Assembly: GCA_027051165.1 (NCBI GenBank)
Contig: JALTZZ010000060.1
Span: 1 to 58,572 of the forward strand
DNA length: 58,572 bases
Origin: an archaeon
Lineage (GTDB): Archaea; Hydrothermarchaeota; Hydrothermarchaeia; JALTZZ01
Reading direction: 5' to 3'
Shown in pieces: positions 5,080-58,572 of the stretch. How positions within the stretch are numbered: the stretch's first letter is position 1; every line of letters starts with the position of its first letter. The notes beneath the pieces are model-generated. The model was not told where the DNA came from, did not search any database, and saw nothing but the letters and a program-made list of their open reading frames with translations. The translations under genes and the position numbers were made by a program.

Positions 5080-5396
5080 TATCTTATCTCGCCTTTCTCT
5101 TCAGCCTCGTAATATTCTTTTAACCCCTTTTCAATGCTTTCGGCATGAATAATCTTAACTGACACTTTCCCAACCTTAGATTCAACCAGATATTCTATCA
5201 CAGCTGTGAGAGTTTTTGGATTGAAATAGCTTGAATACAGGTCAACACCCTTAATTTCTCCCAAATCTTCTTTGATGGAATTTTTAACAATCTCAAAAGG
5301 CTTTATTTTATCTTTTTCAAAAATCTCTGCAAGCTCTTCAAAAGATAGGTTTAGCTCTGTAAATGTGTCCATGAAACAAACATAGGTTCTGTTCAT
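5073..5396 (-). CDS. Hypothetical element-associated protein
   Basis: No family recognised. The ORF can extend to an ATG at 5486, but the start at 5396 (MNRTYV) is preferred. A TATA-like CTTAAAAAA lies at 5454-5465, and the TCACAGCTGTGA palindrome at 5431-5442 would then sit near the transcription start rather than in codons. The protein is about 107 residues, mixed alpha/beta, with an acidic C-terminus. A second palindrome copy at 5198 lies inside the coding frame. It may share a bidirectional promoter with the 90-residue gene at 5485. Confidence 0.5.
5198..5209. repeat. TCACAGCTGTGA palindrome, copy 1
   Basis: A perfect 12-bp palindrome, flanked on the right by GAG. It lies inside the minus-strand hypothetical gene, where it encodes part of LTAVIEYL. 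It is one of ten copies confined to the two flanks of the window. Confidence 0.8.
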
Positions 5397-5430: not shown

Positions 5431-5442
5431 TCACAGCTGTGA
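5431..5442. repeat. TCACAGCTGTGA palindrome, copy 2
   Basis: A perfect copy in the divergent promoter region between the genes starting at 5396 (-) and 5485 (+). It lies next to a bidirectional T/A-rich TATA-like element at 5454-5465, an operator-like position. Confidence 0.8.
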
Positions 5443-5484: not shown

Positions 5485-5757
5485 ATGATCGTGAGAATAC
5501 TCCCAGAGAAAGATAGAGTTATGGGGTTAATAATATTTGGCGGTCTCTACGATTTGTTAGAGTTTGACTGGAAGGAAACAAAGTGCGATGAGTGTGGAGA
5601 GGTTGTTTTATACTATAAAGAGATACCCGAAGATGCAAAGAAGGTTTACATGAAGTGTGCCGAAAAGCTCTATCCTGAGGAGTTCTACGAGACTATAAAG
5701 AGAGGTTATATAAGAGGCATGAAAAAGTATCTTGAAAGAACAAGATACATACAGTAG
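5485..5757 (+). CDS. Small hypothetical protein with CxxC pair
   Basis: 90 residues, no family recognised. A CDECG knuckle (about residue 33) is followed by a single further Cys (CAEKL), so metal binding is possible but incomplete. The ATG at 5485 lies about 25 nt downstream of a TTTTTTAAG element and lacks a Shine-Dalgarno, fitting a leaderless transcript. An internal ATG at 5521 is an alternative. The gene is bracketed by palindrome copies at 5431 and 5785, the arrangement also seen around the VapBC modules on the right flank. Confidence 0.5.
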   Translation: MIVRILPEKDRVMGLIIFGGLYDLLEFDWKETKCDECGEVVLYYKEIPEDAKKVYMKCAEKLYPEEFYETIKRGYIRGMKKYLERTRYIQ

Positions 5758-5784: not shown

Positions 5785-5796
5785 TCACAGCTGTGA
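5785..5796. repeat. TCACAGCTGTGA palindrome, copy 3
   Basis: A perfect copy that forms the last codons and the stop of the recombinase gene (Ser-Gln-Leu-stop on the minus strand) and ends the interval holding the 90-residue gene. Confidence 0.85.
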
Positions 5797-6630
5797 GGAT
5801 TCATATACCTTCACAGAGCCAAGGAGACGTTTTTCTCTGAGGTAGGAAAACATCTCGTATAGTTCATCAGCAACCTTGGAATACCACTCATCTGCACTCG
5901 TTTCCCTCGCCAAATAGTGCATCGCTCCCACGTTTATCGGATTTCTTCCCTGAATGAAGTCAACAACGTCGGCTGGAACACCTTTTCTAAACAGAAAGTT
6001 GTAGTGCCACTTCCTCAAATACTTCAGCCTTATCTTCCTTCTCTTAAAGTAGTTTTTGACCCCAGCAACGGTTATATCAAGCCTTTTGAGCTTCTTAGTG
6101 AACTTTAATGGTATGTAAACGAAGTAAACGTTTTTAGTTCTCCTTAAATAGTTCAGAGGATACTTCGCAAAGTTCTTGTATCTTATCAAGTTATTTTCAT
6201 CATAGTTTTTAAGCATGTGAACCGCTTCCCTTATTCTTATACCGCTGTAACAGAGGAACTCGTAGAGAATCCTGTATTTCTCCATGTCTATTCTCATGTA
6301 GTCCCTTAGAACTTTCTCCGTGGGAGGTCTGTATGTATCTATACCACCTTTGGGAATCTTCACAAGCTTTCTGTATATCATCAGCGAGTTGAAGTCCAGA
6401 ATTCCCGTTTCCTCGCAGAAGTTGAAAAGATTTCTTAAAGCCGTTCTCAAGTGTCTTTTGCCCCTTTCCACATTGAGCAGGCTTAAAATAGCGTTTATGT
6501 CAACTTTTCCGTTAACGTATCTGTCGAGATAGCTTATCATCTTCTTTGCATGCTCCTTGCTAACCCTCTGGTAGAGCCATGCTATAAACCGCTCTCTTAT
6601 TGCATGGTAGTCTATCGGCTTAGCCTCCAT
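5785..6630 (-). CDS. Tyrosine recombinase / integrase (archaeal XerA-like)
   Basis: A site-specific DNA recombinase of about 281 residues. The N-terminal SAM-like core-binding region contains QRVSKEHAKKMISYLDRY. The catalytic domain shows SGIRIREAV (first Arg, about residue 135), the LRKWHYNFL box (second Arg/His region), GVPADVVDFIQGR and the C-terminal MHYLAR with the nucleophilic Tyr. All canonical boxes are present, so it looks active. The ORF allows TTG at 6645, but ATG at 6630 lies about 25 nt after a TTTTAAAA element and would be leaderless. The 120-bp inverted repeat next to tRNA-Gly lies directly upstream. The stop is embedded in a palindrome copy, giving the terminus SSQL. Confidence 0.88.
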   Translation of the reverse strand: MEAKPIDYHAIRERFIAWLYQRVSKEHAKKMISYLDRYVNGKVDINAILSLLNVERGKRHLRTALRNLFNFCEETGILDFNSLMIYRKLVKIPKGGIDTYRPPTEKVLRDYMRIDMEKYRILYEFLCYSGIRIREAVHMLKNYDENNLIRYKNFAKYPLNYLRRTKNVYFVYIPLKFTKKLKRLDITVAGVKNYFKRRKIRLKYLRKWHYNFLFRKGVPADVVDFIQGRNPINVGAMHYLARETSADEWYSKVADELYEMFSYLREKRLLGSVKVYESSQL

Positions 6631-6651
6631 CAGCAAATACTTCAAGTTTTA

Positions 6652-6770
6652 AAAGTCATTCCCATACTCGTGTATGGGATTACAAAAATTGTTGAAGGTA
6701 TTAGTAACTCCGGGACGAAGAGTATTAGTAACATGAGAAGCTCTGTTTAAGTTGTTTTCAAAAAATGAAG
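6652..6770 (-). repeat. Left copy of inverted 120-bp att-like repeat
   Basis: It begins at the 3' end of tRNA-Gly and runs to the recombinase gene. It contains two direct copies of GTTACTAATAC (arm-type-site-like) and the dyad CCCATACTCGTGTATGGG with a 4-nt centre. The stretch from about 6652 to 6732 matches 55198-55277 in reverse complement with only a few differences, and weaker similarity continues to both tRNA ends. It is read as an integrase attachment region. Confidence 0.8.
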
Positions 6771-6843
6771 TGCGACCGCCGGGATTTGAACCCGGGCTAC
6801 GGGTTTGGCAGACCCGTGTCCTACCAGGCTAGACTACGGTCGC
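6771..6843 (-). tRNA. tRNA-Gly (GCC)
   Basis: A cloverleaf on the minus strand: acceptor GCGACCG/CGGTCGC, anticodon stem CGGGT/ACCCG with loop CTGCCAA (anticodon GCC), and T-arm with GGTTCAAATCC. The discriminator is A and no 3' CCA is encoded. No intron is seen. A TATA-like tttatattttatat lies just upstream (6848-6862). The DNA after its 3' end is the att-like repeat. Confidence 0.93.
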
Positions 6844-55083: not shown

Positions 55084-55157
55084 GGGCCCGTAGCTCAGTC
55101 TGGTAGAGCGAGGGACTCTTAATCCCTTGGTCGGGGGTTCAAATCCCCCCGGGCCCG
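55084..55157 (+). tRNA. tRNA-Lys (CTT)
   Basis: Acceptor GGGCCCG/CGGGCCC, D-arm TAGCTCAGTCTGGTAGAGC, anticodon stem AGGGA/TCCCT with loop CTCTTAA (anticodon CTT), T-arm GGTTCAAATCC and discriminator G. No CCA and no intron. Its 3' end abuts the right copy of the inverted att-like repeat. Confidence 0.94.
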
Positions 55158-55277
55158 GATATTTTTCTAAAAGCTACCAAAACAGAGCTTTTCCAGTTAC
55201 TAATACTCTTGGTCTCGGAGTTACTAATACCCTCAACAATTTTTGTAATCCCATACACGAGTATGGGAATGACTTTA
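55158..55277 (+). repeat. Right copy of inverted 120-bp att-like repeat
   Basis: It begins at the 3' end of tRNA-Lys and matches, in inverted orientation, the segment next to tRNA-Gly. The shared items in order are AAACAGAGCTT, GTTACTAATAC twice as a direct repeat, CAACAATTTTTGTAATC and the dyad CCCATACACGAGTATGGG. Similarity is near-perfect over about 80 bp and weaker up to the tRNA. No recombinase gene follows on this side; a VapBC module does. Confidence 0.8.
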
Positions 55278-55290
55278 AAAAATCTAACCC

Positions 55291-55302
55291 TCACAGCTGT
55301 GA
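55291..55302. repeat. TCACAGCTGTGA palindrome, copy 4
   Basis: A perfect copy between a TATA-like ACTTTAAAAAAT (55271-55282) and the start codon of the antitoxin gene, close to the expected transcription start. This is an operator position. Confidence 0.82.
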
Positions 55303-55327
55303 GGATGTTAATCTTTGCTAAGAGGGC

Positions 55328-55528
55328 ATGAAGATAAGAGTTAGGTATGAGAAAGGTGTTTTAAAGCCTTTAGAGAAAATTGAACTTGAAGAAGGAAAGG
55401 AGTATACAATTGAAATCAAAGAAGATCTTTATACTTACATAAAGAGGTATTATGGAAAGGTAAAAGGGATTTATGAGTATAAAAATGAAGAATTAGAGGA
55501 AGTCATTTATGGAGAAAATATTCATTGA
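55328..55528 (+). CDS. DUF104 (AF2212-type) antitoxin
   Basis: 66 residues beginning with the AbrB-like strand pattern KIRVRYEKGVLKPLEKIELEEGKEY, the hallmark of the DUF104 antitoxins first noted in Archaeoglobus. The remaining helix (LEEVIYGENIH) would wrap the toxin. It overlaps the PIN gene by 20 nt. A palindrome copy lies 26-37 nt upstream. Confidence 0.82.
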   Translation: MKIRVRYEKGVLKPLEKIELEEGKEYTIEIKEDLYTYIKRYYGKVKGIYEYKNEELEEVIYGENIH

Positions 55529-55970
55529 CTCAACGGTCTTTATAAAGTATGCAAGAGGAGAAGACGATCTTCTTTTAAAGCTCATAGGCAATGAGCTTTA
55601 TACTTCTACAAACGTTTTTGAAGAATGTTTTTATAAGCTTTTACTTTTAAAATGTGGAGATATAACCGGAAAAATCTCCGTATATAAGTTAAAGGATTCT
55701 TTGAAGAAAAATTATGATGCTTTCAAAGATGTTTTCGAATTTATGGATTTTTTTGAAAGTTTGCTTTCTATGAAAGTAGTTCATCTGCTGGAAATTAATC
55801 TCGAAATATTAAGGATTATGAGCGATATCGTTGAGAAATATAAGCTTCTTCCTAACGACGCCCTTATAGCAGCTACTTGTAAATACTACGATATTAAGAA
55901 GATTGCAACTTTTGATGAAGACTTTAAGAGAGTAGACTTCCTTGAGGTAGTTGAACCCTCACAGCTGTGA
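55509..55970 (+). CDS. vapC: VapC-type PIN ribonuclease toxin
   Basis: 153 residues with PIN-domain acidic residues: IFIDSTVFIKYARGE at the start, FEECFYKLLLL (about 38), and the C-terminal LPNDALIAATCKYYDIKKIATFDEDF (seen in parts, about 117-140). A likely Mg-dependent endoribonuclease neutralised by the DUF104 protein. The last three codons and stop are formed by a palindrome copy, giving the terminus EPSQL. The pair is bracketed by palindromes at both ends. Confidence 0.85.
   Translation: MEKIFIDSTVFIKYARGEDDLLLKLIGNELYTSTNVFEECFYKLLLLKCGDITGKISVYKLKDSLKKNYDAFKDVFEFMDFFESLLSMKVVHLLEINLEILRIMSDIVEKYKLLPNDALIAATCKYYDIKKIATFDEDFKRVDFLEVVEPSQL
55959..55970. repeat. TCACAGCTGTGA palindrome, copy 5
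   Basis: A perfect copy that coincides with the last codons and stop of vapC (Ser-Gln-Leu-stop), the same placement and frame as at the end of the recombinase gene. Confidence 0.85.
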
Positions 55971-56076
55971 GGATAAAAGCAGATATCCAAAAATTGAGGT
56001 TTTTAAATAGAGGAGAACCAACGCTTACATGGAAATCTAACACATACATCATTCCGATTATAGAAAAATATTAGAA

Positions 56077-56285
56077 GGTTACCTGGTTACCCGGTTACTT
56101 AGGTTACCGGTTACCTGAGTTACCCGGGGTTTCGTGAACTTGACAGAAAAAATTTGTGAGTTTTCATTTTGTCAGGTAACCAGGTAACCTAATAAAGAAG
56201 CTTGATTTAAGGATTTCAGATATAAAATAAGGGTAAATTAGTCGGTTACCTCGCACACCTTTAGGTTACCTGGGTTCAGGTAACC
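56077..56285. repeat. GGTTACC iteron-like array
   Basis: Eleven heptamers, two of them with one substitution: six in one orientation at 56077, 56085, 56093, 56102, 56109 and 56118; two inverted (GGTAACC) at 56175 and 56183; two forward at 56244 and 56264; one inverted at 56279. Spacing in the first group is 7-9 bp. One more GGTTACC lies at 57308. The gene-free stretch 55971-56383 holds only this array, which looks like plasmid origin iterons or a multi-site operator. Confidence 0.78.
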
Positions 56286-56383
56286 TTCTCATTCAAGCAG
56301 AAAATTGGCTAAAACGTTACATTTGCTCTTTTTCCTTTCCCTAAGAGAAATATTTGATCATAAACATCAAAATAAAGTTAATA

Positions 56384-56836
56384 CTATTTACTTTTTGATT
56401 TCAAAACAACATTCTTTCTCGTTAAGTCAATAACACCAATACCATATTTAGCGAGCCAGTTAACTCTTGGCTTCTTCTTAAAAGGATAAGCAACATAGAT
56501 CTCGGAAAACAAGCCAAGCTTAGCCTTCTTTAATGCTTGTTTTACGAGCCTTCTGAAATATTTATCTTTAACCTCGATCAAAATTATCTTATCATCCTTG
56601 ACTCCGATCAAATCGAACTCATATCTATCATAGCGAATCCTTTCATAAACTTTGTATCCCTTTGAATAGAGCCACTCTCTAAGAAACTCATAGTAATCGT
56701 ATTCGCTCATTCCCTCTATAGAATTTCCTTCTTTTATCTTTATTTCTCTCTTATTTTTAGATAATATCTTTAATTCTTTTTTATTTTTCTTCACTTGCCC
56801 AAGTGGAAAGCACAGTATACTCGCAATCTGAAACAC
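56384..56836 (-). CDS. Small PD-(D/E)XK nuclease-like protein
   Basis: Up to 150 residues. The restriction-endonuclease fold is visible as YYEFLREWLYSKGYKVYERIRYDRYEFDLIGV followed by IILIEVKDK: the D and ExK residues are in place, then QALKKAKLGLFSEIYVAYP. A likely DNA nuclease or resolvase for element maintenance. The start is uncertain: ATG 56836, GTG 56794 or ATG 56710 (MSEYDYYEF) are possible, the last giving a compact domain. It follows the RHH gene and probably shares its transcript. Confidence 0.7.
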   Translation of the reverse strand: MFQIASILCFPLGQVKKNKKELKILSKNKREIKIKEGNSIEGMSEYDYYEFLREWLYSKGYKVYERIRYDRYEFDLIGVKDDKIILIEVKDKYFRRLVKQALKKAKLGLFSEIYVAYPFKKKPRVNWLAKYGIGVIDLTRKNVVLKSKSK

Positions 56837-57092
56837 TGCACATTAAGCAAGATTCCCTCAAAAACTCTTTTAATCCATCGCTGCTCAGAAGCTTTGCCAG
56901 TAAACTGCAGTTCCTCTTTATAACGTATTCCAAGTTTTCTTTAGAATCAATAAGATCGCTTAACACACTGTTAAAGCTTGTTTCTCTTTCATCTCTTAGT
57001 TTCCTCAACTTTTCGTAGGTATTCTGCTTCACCTTTACCGTCTTATATTTTGCCTTTCTACCACTTTTCCTCAATAGTTCTCCAACCCTCAT
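56781..57092 (-). CDS. Ribbon-helix-helix-like DNA-binding protein
   Basis: 103 residues. KYKTVKVKQNTYEKLRKLRDERETSFNSVLSDLI (about 15-48, in parts) fits an RHH fold: one strand and two helices with a TSFN turn. The C-terminal part has several Cys (CLMCSVSDC), a possible metal or disulfide site. ATG 57092 lies about 20-25 nt from the TATA-like TTTTTATAAAC, so it is probably leaderless; the longer ORF to 57128 would swallow the promoter and part of a palindrome. It is a good candidate regulator of the palindromes or the iterons. Confidence 0.68.
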   Translation of the reverse strand: MRVGELLRKSGRKAKYKTVKVKQNTYEKLRKLRDERETSFNSVLSDLIDSKENLEYVIKRNCSLLAKLLSSDGLKEFLRESCLMCSVSDCEYTVLSTWASEEK

Positions 57093-57124
57093 ACAAAATA
57101 CTAAAAGTTTATAAAAACAAATCC

Positions 57125-57136
57125 TCACAGCTGTGA
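57125..57136. repeat. TCACAGCTGTGA palindrome, copy 6
   Basis: A perfect copy just upstream of the TATA-like element of the RHH gene (minus strand), an activator-like rather than operator-like position. Confidence 0.82.
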
Positions 57137-57340: not shown

Positions 57341-57450
57341 GTTTCTCACAGTTGTGAGAATCAGAAACTTATAAAAATCTTATAGAATTGCTATAAATAT
57401 GCACAACCAAGTTGACAATCAATTGACAATTTCTCACAGCTGTGAAGACA
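57341..57450. repeat. Two-palindrome intergenic module A
   Basis: About 110 bp starting gtttctcacagttgtgag and ending ctcacagctgtgaaga. It holds a one-mismatch palindrome (57346-57357), TATAGAATTGCTATAAA, an ACAACCAA block, a TTGACAAT direct repeat and a perfect palindrome (57434-57445). It closely matches module B at 58166-58284, but the palindrome spacing is 10 bp shorter. The rest of gene-free 57137-57340 is AT-rich with nothing recognised. Confidence 0.75.
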
Positions 57451-57451
57451 T

Positions 57452-57913
57452 CTAAATCTGATATCTTTTCCTTAAATTCTCTTTAACTTCATCTAAACTT
57501 TTACTTTTAAGCAATTCCTCAACAGCATCTGTATCTAAAGCTAAAAACTTCCCAGACCTAAGACCATATATTATAAAATCCTTATCGTTCGTCCATACCG
57601 GTATATTAAGCTTTAGAGCTAAGGCGATGAAAGGAGTATCATCCTCATCAAAATTTCTTGCAATTTCATAAGCTTCTCTTATTTTATCGAGATAAAATTC
57701 CTGAGGAATGATATGAATCAGACTAAAAGCCAAAAACATTCTAAACTCGAACTCCTTGGTTTTCAGCTTGTTTTTATGCTCCTTAAATTCAAGCAATCCC
57801 TCCTCTGGAAAAAATAAATCAACGCTATACTTCTTAATTACTTTAAAAGCTTTAGATTTTTCACCGGAAATTATGATTGAAAACAAAATGTTGCTGTCAA
57901 CAACTAAATGCAT
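57452..57913 (-). CDS. PIN-domain ribonuclease toxin (VapC-like)
   Basis: 153 residues: LVVDSNILFSIIISGEKSKA at the start with the first PIN Asp, FPEEGLLEFKEHKNKL (about 34), and the C-terminal DEDDTPFIALALKLNIPVWTNDKDF (about 89-113, in parts) with the acidic cluster. A second, distinct toxin of the right flank. Its start overlaps the antitoxin stop at 57913. A palindrome copy lies 6 bp beyond the stop, so the module is bracketed on both sides. Confidence 0.83.
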   Translation of the reverse strand: MHLVVDSNILFSIIISGEKSKAFKVIKKYSVDLFFPEEGLLEFKEHKNKLKTKEFEFRMFLAFSLIHIIPQEFYLDKIREAYEIARNFDEDDTPFIALALKLNIPVWTNDKDFIIYGLRSGKFLALDTDAVEELLKSKSLDEVKENLRKRYQI

Positions 57914-58140
57914 TAGATCAGACCCTTTTCCTTATATTCCTTCTTTATTTTCTTCCAAACTTCTTTCCTCGTTTTTTCAAATTCTTCAAAGGCTTTTTCA
58001 GCATTAACATCCATTCCTTGCTTAAGAATTTTAAGGATTATGTCTTTGAATTTTTCTTTGCTTAAACCTTCAGCTATCCAGATATAAACATCCTTCTCCT
58101 TTACCCATTCTGGAACCTCTATTGTAATCGTTTTAGGCAT
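57913..58140 (-). CDS. VapB-like antitoxin
   Basis: 75 residues: TITIEVPEWVKEKDVYIWIAEG (short strand and helix) followed by a long charged helix FEEFEKTRKEVWKKIKKEYKE. The size, layout and coupling to a PIN gene (stop/start overlap) mark it as the antitoxin. GGTGAGAGG lies just before the ATG, and a palindrome copy lies 30 nt upstream. Confidence 0.75.
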   Translation of the reverse strand: MPKTITIEVPEWVKEKDVYIWIAEGLSKEKFKDIILKILKQGMDVNAEKAFEEFEKTRKEVWKKIKKEYKEKGLI

Positions 58141-58165
58141 ATCCTCTCACCTATTCTTAACGTCG

Positions 58166-58284
58166 TTTCTCACAGCTGTGAGGAATAAAACCTATAGGAA
58201 TCCTATAGAATTGCTATAAACATGAACAACCAATTTGGCAATTAATTGCCAATCAATTGATAACTTCTCACAGCTGTGAAGAAC
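58166..58284. repeat. Two-palindrome intergenic module B
   Basis: It contains perfect palindromes at 58170-58181 and 58268-58279. Between them are CCTATAGAATTGCTATAAAC, ACAACCAA and a second, perfect 18-bp palindrome TTGGCAATTAATTGCCAA. The layout and sequence are shared with module A. Here it separates a gene end (the stop lies inside the right palindrome) from the promoter of the vapB-like gene. Confidence 0.78.
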
Positions 58285-58572
58285 TCTTATTAAGCTTTCT
58301 CAGCAGGGACTCAAGAGCATCGAACCTTTTATCAAAATACTCATATACTTCATCTATAAGATCGTCAACACTATCAAACCTCTCTAAGAACTCTGCGATC
58401 TTAGCTAAAGCATCAACCATTCTCTTAAAATTTGAAGCATCCTCTACACTTTTAAAATCAAGCTCGCCACCCTTTGATCTATCAATAACAGCCCTAAGAA
58501 CATCTATGTGCAGCTTGCCTAAAAGATCGCTCGCAGCCCTTATAATGCCCTCAGGATCTATGTATGCTACCT
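58268..58572 (-). CDS. 3' part of an unidentified helical protein (partial)
   Basis: A minus-strand frame enters from the right edge and stops at 58268-58270, giving about 100 residues. The sequence is helical and acidic (IRAASDLLGKLHIDVLRAVI, FLERFDSVDDLIDEVYEYFD), possibly coiled coil. No family recognised. The stop and the last codons are made by a palindrome copy, so the terminus is SSSQL, matching the recombinase and VapC ends. Confidence 0.6.
   Translation of the reverse strand, partial: VAYIDPEGIIRAASDLLGKLHIDVLRAVIDRSKGGELDFKSVEDASNFKRMVDALAKIAEFLERFDSVDDLIDEVYEYFDKRFDALESLLRKLNKSSSQL

Follow-up and report, generated by a model that had tools for sequence, protein, structure and literature searches.

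A short palindrome as the probable exchange site of gene cassettes on integrative elements of Hydrothermarchaeota

We describe a 12-letter palindrome, TCACAGCTGTGA, that borders small gene units in a 58,572-nucleotide stretch of archaeal DNA (contig JALTZZ010000060.1; hereafter the window). Taken together, our data make it probable that integrative, conjugation-like elements of Hydrothermarchaeota carry a system of gene cassettes for which this palindrome is the exchange site, and that the palindrome also acts as a promoter element. Nine exact copies lie in the window (Table 1), where 100 dinucleotide shuffles give an expectation of 0.00, together with one further copy with a single mismatch. 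Its whole genome (G000; 2.38 Mb in 171 contigs), that of an uncultivated archaeon from a hot environment, holds 186 exact copies, compared with 0 for the reversed control. A first-pass annotation of the window had described three enclosed units: a DUF104-VapC pair (55328-55970) between 55291 and 55959, a second pair between 57434 and 58170, and a 90-residue gene between 5431 and 5785. Every palindrome and every border pair that it named proved exact and correctly placed, and the second pair (57452-58140, minus strand) consists of a PIN_2 protein and a 75-aa partner. The bracketing of cassettes by palindromes is thus real, and far larger than first noted.

Table 1. Positions of features in the window and, where a contig or locus is named, elsewhere in the genomes compared.
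Feature	Position	Strand	Basis or remark
Palindrome inside called gene 5073-5372/5486 (-)	5198..5209		sequence and gene call
Palindrome, left border of 90-aa gene cassette	5431..5442		exact copy
90-aa gene	5485..5757	+	no Pfam match
Palindrome, right border of 90-aa cassette and integrase stop codon	5785..5796		exact copy
SSV-type archaeal integrase (Phage_integr_3)	5785..6645	-	Pfam PF16795, E 1e-46
tRNA-Gly	6770..6843		adjoins integrase gene
tRNA-Lys	55084..55157	+	probable integration site of element at window's right end
Palindrome TCACAGCTGTGA, left border of focal cassette	55291..55302		ends 25 nt before DUF104 ATG
AF2212-like (DUF104) antitoxin-type protein, 66 aa	55328..55528	+	Pfam PF01954, E 3e-14
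VapC-like PIN-domain toxin, 153 aa	55509..55970	+	Pfam PF01850, E 8e-20
Palindrome, right border of focal cassette and left border of next unit	55959..55970		sequence
Unit with NERD/UPF0102-like and VapB-like/RHH genes	55959..57136		palindromes at both edges
NERD/UPF0102-like nuclease-type protein	56384..56836	-	weak matches
VapB-like/RHH protein	56781..57128	-	weak matches
Palindrome with AT box (TTTATAAAC)	57125..57136		32 nt upstream of minus-strand start at 57092
One-mismatch palindrome TCACAGTTGTGA	57346..57357		border of 88-bp gene-less unit
Palindrome, border of second toxin-antitoxin cassette	57434..57445		exact copy
Second toxin-antitoxin cassette	57434..58181		palindromes 57434 and 58170 as edges
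PIN_2-domain toxin, 153 aa	57452..57913	-	Pfam PF10130, E 1e-28
75-aa partner of PIN_2 toxin, antitoxin by position	57913..58140	-	no Pfam match
Palindrome, other border of second toxin-antitoxin cassette	58170..58181		exact copy
Gene-less unit of ~98 bp between palindromes	58170..58279		recurs in C20 and C11
Palindrome	58268..58279		provides stop codon of minus-strand gene 58268-58570+
84-bp gene-less unit	L022 4372-4467; L023 3080-3175; L033 10190-10285; L128 13006-13101 and 17973-18068; L158 7810-7905
Repeat of ~1.1 kb	L005 10036; L008 9051; L025 463-1618; L101 7428; L114 1-1228; L093 4124
TFB-like protein, 220 aa	L033 4572-5234; C162 10699-11349		zinc ribbon and one TFIIB repeat

Counts out of 165 cover that many of the 186 genomic copies, 21 copies lying outside the stretches first fetched; genes were called with a simple script on contigs of at least 3 kb, and all assemblies used, that of the window's genome and those of its relatives, are fragmented. 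In the sequence examined the palindrome tops all perfect 12-nt palindromes (165 copies, runner-up 12), and its copies are concentrated on island or element contigs. Only 9 of the 165 lie inside genes, although the coding share of their neighbourhood is 74.5%. The site is nearly invariant, with 178 exact copies against 21 with one mismatch (0 and 0 for the reversed control). Moreover, the conserved symmetric site exceeds the 12-mer, reading about YYTCACAGCTGTGARR or, written around the core, about WTYYTCACAGCTGTGARRAW: the perfect palindrome measures 12-16 bp and the whole site ~16-20 bp (about 20 bp in all), with flanks that are unconserved outside promoters. On both sides of the 12-mer the first two positions are purines (mostly GG), positions +3 and +4 are weakly conserved, and this holds equally whether a side faces the start of a gene, the end of one or neither. 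All 178 copies have the same centre, while the arms become degenerate beyond 8 bp. That the site is so symmetric and so nearly invariant suggests recognition by a protein dimer that would demand exactly this sequence. The centre of the palindrome is also a PvuII-type motif, CAGCTG. We set aside a restriction-motif reading, as CAGCTG is not strongly avoided elsewhere: there are 214 copies outside the palindrome compared with a Markov expectation of 296, a figure inflated by the palindrome copies themselves.

That cassettes are exchanged at the palindrome, as the first-pass annotation had proposed, is strongly supported by exact breakpoints, by pairs of empty and filled sites, by an inversion and by the differing cargo and order seen in relatives. 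Among homologous island segments of at least 80% identity and at least 150 bp with internal breakpoints, 20 of 72 breakpoints, which are not fully independent events, fall on palindromes in both copies; shifting the sites at random gave a mean of 0.12 and a maximum of 3 in 500 trials. Homology runs just 0-7 bp past the palindrome, even in pairs at 96-99% identity. In the window, homology with C79 (L045; 94%) stops 1 bp beyond palindrome 5431, and homologues of the adjoining 90-aa gene in C76, C42 and C150 are likewise preceded by a palindrome. We also took palindrome pairs with one 60-bp flank at least 75% identical and compared the opposite flanks. These were unrelated in 51 of the 80 pairs (32% identity; random level 30%) and homologous in 22. 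At palindrome-free control points of the same islands the opposite flank was unrelated at 3/52 and 5/56 gene starts, 14/71 gene ends and 0/55 gene middles.

Individual loci illustrate the events. A single palindrome at C45 4328 corresponds in C55 to two (1778 and 4026) that enclose a two-unit insert of 2.25 kb; the flanks are 98.5% identical and the crossover lies within the palindrome. This insertion is clean, with no target duplication and with one palindrome common to adjoining units. A 1.17-kb cassette with an archaeal ATPase gene, whose interior is 96.7% identical over 1161 bp, occurs in C5 and C162 with both neighbours different. At the focal junction 55959, C20 (L011) carries an extra 657-bp antitoxin/PIN cassette between palindromes 1918 and 2575, and the following window unit (55959-57136) has its homologue at C20 2575-3771 (1073 bp at 91% identity), where the neighbour on the left differs. 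The second toxin-antitoxin cassette is inverted in the same contig (L011 4570-5329) relative to the flanking units that both share. The focal toxin-antitoxin type itself lies at three places, always between palindromes (the window, C20 1208-1929 and C59 1678-2343), at an overall DNA identity of about 59-63%. Its association with the palindrome is therefore old as well as recent.

We noted that the right ends of the window and of L011, and likewise those of L022 and L024, are formed by the same 127-bp k-mer on contigs of differing unit content; thus two cassette versions feed one downstream sequence, which may stem from two copies of the element or from variation within the population that was sequenced. 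Shared end k-mers of this kind, several contig ends inside islands and an assembly in 171 pieces could also point to contigs misjoined at a repeated 16-mer. We regard such an artefact as scarcely credible, since contig ends overlap by exactly 127 bp, which places the assembly k-mer far above a repeat of 12-16 bp, and since the same architecture is found in independently assembled relatives.

The preferred reading, exchange of cassettes at the palindrome, can be put as follows. Units of 33 bp to about 2.5 kb would lie head to tail with one palindrome per junction, giving N+1 sites for N units. Any two sites could then recombine, whereby the DNA in between would be deleted, inserted, swapped or inverted, and because the site is perfectly symmetric it would have no direction and both orientations would occur. 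Many units carry a promoter of their own close inside the palindrome (AT box 9-10 nt away, start typically at 30-31 or 40-42 nt), and hence an arriving gene would be expressed wherever it was inserted. The palindrome probably serves as an upstream element of this promoter as well.

Between consecutive sites, units measure from 33 bp to several kb, and many of them are toxin-antitoxin pairs. Their cargo includes PIN/VapBC-type, HicA, HEPN, TumE and UPF0175 families, DNA methyltransferases, PCNA and others, together with restriction/methylation genes, radical-SAM genes, element backbone genes and gene-less spacers. Units share their border sequence with the reading frames of some cargo: the focal PIN toxin ends in SQL-stop encoded by palindrome 55959-55970, the last three bases of which are the stop codon. 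Small units of at most 130 bp without genes make up 37 of 136, and those of fixed size (84/85, 43/44 and 86-99 bp) recur in many places. This recurrence would also be expected if units were non-autonomous transposable elements, MITE-like or IS-like, with ends that are palindromic by chance. We hold this to be very improbable. An insertion adds as many sites as units, leaves no extra duplication and shows no terminal repeats beyond the shared palindrome; unrelated full-length genes have identical ends; and, unlike what an insertion sequence would bring, no transposase appeared among the best 25 of the 67 Pfam families matched by 105 island proteins.

The 84-bp gene-less units are conserved in sequence, with the motif GATGCCTTAGGGAAATTGAATTCC, often lie beside a unit of 33-44 bp and number roughly one per element copy; an origin, a transfer or partition site, or a small RNA are possible roles. 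An Rfam scan of six island contigs gave zero matches, so that the gene-less units there are not known RNAs. One contig of a relative (L148 4348-4617, G012 C22) carries six palindromes in mirror-symmetric spacing (49, 37, 86, 37, 49), the outer units apparently being inverted copies of one another. Separately, a repeat of ~1.1 kb, about 80-90% identical, occurs on many contigs with edges that are not palindromes, and is probably an insertion element.

The carrying elements encode HerA/TraG-like, VirB11-like and ParA-type ATPases, a TFB-like protein and, beside tRNA genes, an SSV-type integrase. Against known plasmids, the HerA/TraG-like protein matched bacterial plasmids only weakly and L128:18070 found no relative. 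In IMG/VR the 16-mer gave 25 single, chance-like hits, the palindrome-plus-AT-box pattern gave none, and relatives of element protein A1 were absent.

Many sites are linked to promoters. Distances from palindrome to start codon peak sharply at 30-31 nt and at 40-42 nt; the former class lacks a Shine-Dalgarno sequence, while the latter has a GGTGGTG-like one just before the ATG. At promoter-linked sites an AT box lies 9-10 nt from the palindrome, and it is found on 83 of 109 promoter arms compared with 4 of 56 arms facing gene ends. In leaderless genes behind a palindrome the AT box starts at -20/-21 from the ATG, and in host genes without a palindrome at about -32 to -27. Should transcription begin at or close to these ATGs, the palindrome promoters would form a class about one helical turn shorter. 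Side by side with this, the elements encode a TFB-like protein, found twice in G000 and in the relatives G009 and G011. Elsewhere in the class there are just weak zinc-ribbon matches, and apart from these the protein is confined to palindrome-carrying genomes. This distribution makes a dedicated factor for the promoter class, perhaps the TFB-like protein itself, a reasonable guess.

These data bear on the main rival to our reading, general short-homology recombination at a site that is kept for the sake of regulation. Here the palindrome would primarily be the operator or promoter of an element-wide regulon, and ordinary or short-homology recombination would shuffle the units because the palindrome is the sole stretch that unrelated neighbours share. 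The fixed start-codon distances, the AT box at its constant spacing, the shifted AT boxes of leaderless genes and the TFB-like protein that is specific to the elements (G000, G009 and G011) all favour it, as does the precedent of an archaeal plasmid integrase that reportedly recombines with low sequence specificity, on identical stretches down to 104 bp long (PMC8371274). However, about half of the sites lie 20-60 nt before a start codon, and 84 of 165 have no gene start at that distance on either side; together with the scarcity of AT boxes on gene-end arms, this means that a promoter role does not explain the sites taken as a whole. Sites at gene 3' ends and in gene-less units retain the YY...RR symmetry without the AT box, and crossovers end 0-7 bp from the 12-mer with no spread into that box. 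Moreover, the excess of exact over one-mismatch copies leaves no graded variation of the sort seen in a transcription-factor regulon. We therefore rejected a plain promoter regulon as the whole explanation and consider the wider regulon reading unlikely, though the promoter geometry shows a transcriptional role for some sites, and the palindrome may be conserved on that account, with recombination being opportunistic. The suggestion of the first-pass annotation that units carry the same control sites at start and end holds in part: about half of the sites are promoter-linked with fixed geometry, but 3'-end copies and gene-less units lack the promoter signature.

Returning to exchange at the palindrome, we infer that its agent is a dedicated recombinase that binds DNA with two-fold symmetry. 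The first-pass annotation had named the tyrosine recombinase encoded in the window (5785-6645, PF16795) as the candidate. Its family is abundant in G000 (this gene and eight other matches), and the palindrome sits exactly at the 3' end of the integrase gene both in the window and in C146. However, PF16795 is absent from G009, G011 and G012, which bear 6, 1 and 15 palindromes, and G001 has one such gene with a single palindrome; the family is therefore not everywhere that the palindrome is. The homology of a family member in C17 to the window integrase ends before the palindrome. For SSV-type integrases the att site lies in a tRNA gene, and the window gene adjoins one. That this integrase recombines the palindromes is thus improbable, and we rejected it as a general agent. 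It likely integrates the carrying element, presumably by attachment at the tRNA gene beside it. At the other end of the window, the stretch behind tRNA-Lys (55135-55281) resembles the integrase/tRNA-Gly boundary (6647-6793) at 85% identity, and a similar stretch extends over 55127-55321; judged from sequence, this likeness is consistent with an SSV-type integrase gene being split on integration.

Among the families PF16795, PF00239 and PF00589, no recombinase gene tracks the palindrome. Serine resolvases (PF00239) are absent from G009 and G012 and do not correlate with it; PF00589 recombinases are present also in palindrome-free relatives, and they too were rejected. In G000 a single PF00589 match exceeds the cut-off (C125, 27.1 bits). 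An IntI-type recombinase was not found there, the PF00589 match scoring 29 bits against integrase_gron where 265 are needed, and the best candidate reached 37 bits against XerA_Arch (cut-off 220). C125 itself (L091; 10,611 bp) carries a tyrosine recombinase of 303 aa and no palindrome, and its ends overlap by 127 bp; it is thus probably a plasmid or virus with a circular genome of 10.5 kb.

Across 23 genomes of the class, palindrome copies number 186 in G000, 15 in G012, 6 in G009 and one each in G011, G001 and G021, the rest having none. Element genes and palindrome occur together in three relatives only (G009, G011 and G012), with neighbours that differ from those in G000; this number limits the cross-species support. 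In G009 (Candidatus Pyrohabitans sp. JdFR-17, phylum Hydrothermarchaeota), which carries the same element gene, and in G012, almost every copy lies on one or two contigs that also bear homologues of G000 element genes. G009 belongs to the same class as the window's genome, which is thereby placed in Hydrothermarchaeota as well. The MA-peptidase gene and two radical-SAM genes of C45, C55 and C148 are reordered in G012 (L149) with a palindrome at each border, and in G009 (L147) one palindrome is common to units whose G000 homologues stand at separate places. The first-pass annotation had suggested a search for other cargo between the same palindromes in relatives, and had held that conserved order with unchanged cargo, plus strong regulator binding, would favour plain transcription control; both cargo and order differ in G009 and G012.

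Mosaic structure is known from archaeal islands and plasmids. To our knowledge, the agents of gene-by-gene shuffling in archaea are mostly unknown, rare bacterial-type integrons apart. More tentatively than the exchange site itself, we propose as a possible reading an archaea-specific system in which a directionless palindrome of 12-16 bp would serve both for recombination and as the upstream element in a dedicated class of promoters, aided by a putative recombinase and possibly a TFB-like factor, so that genes could be inserted either way and still be expressed. Unit borders, breakpoints and promoters are all predicted by one short motif, which can be used to list cassettes, to search genomes and to seek the enzyme. 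If the proposal is true, a minimal symmetric exchange site working both ways would be a useful recombination tool for archaea of hot environments. The unusual promoter spacing, in turn, makes the idea of a transcription factor specific to the elements open to test.

In the literature searched, the palindrome sequence was not printed in any relevant context. Lastly, we compared the arrangement with known systems. Cluster K mycobacteriophages carry the start-associated sequence (SAS), an element-wide repeat at a fixed distance from many starts and nearly absent from the host (PMC3203893). The palindrome resembles it as a short element-wide repeat at fixed start-codon distance, but the SAS is asymmetric, RBS-like and 3-7 bp from starts, whereas the palindrome is symmetric, occurs at the 3' ends of genes as well and falls on breakpoints. 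SSV-type and pT26-2-type elements likewise combine a tRNA-targeting integrase with ATPases and membrane proteins of a putative transfer apparatus (PMC6972569). The pT26-2 family is reported solely in Thermococcales and Methanococcales, and the literature consulted describes no palindrome cassette system for such elements. Integrons, archaeal ones included, share with our islands arrays of small cassettes that have a common site and capture unrelated genes, and the mobility of units with crossover at a shared site (empty and filled sites, swapped flanks) is met here. However, attC is an imperfect, folded single-strand site, and integron arrays are mostly in one orientation and depend on IntI (PMC9668308), whereas we find a perfect 12-16-bp palindrome within a site of ~16-20 bp, both orientations, promoters inside units and no IntI. 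The pdif modules of Acinetobacter plasmids are small, often toxin-antitoxin pairs, bounded by a short site and gained, lost, inverted and reordered by crossover inside it (PMC13141974). Yet pdif is an oriented 28-bp XerC/XerD site with two 11-bp arms and a variable 6-bp spacer (PMC13141974). The present site is instead a directionless perfect palindrome whose centre does not vary; a XerCD-type pair was not found, the host is archaeal and the site is coupled to the unit's own promoter. A gene-cassette system of this type thus looks not to have been described before. The closest known arrangement is that of pdif modules, followed by integrons; as both fail in their defining features here, we place the palindrome system as a new variety of exchangeable modules delimited by sites; the chance that its enzyme and its promoter coupling set it apart as a kind of its own is moderate.
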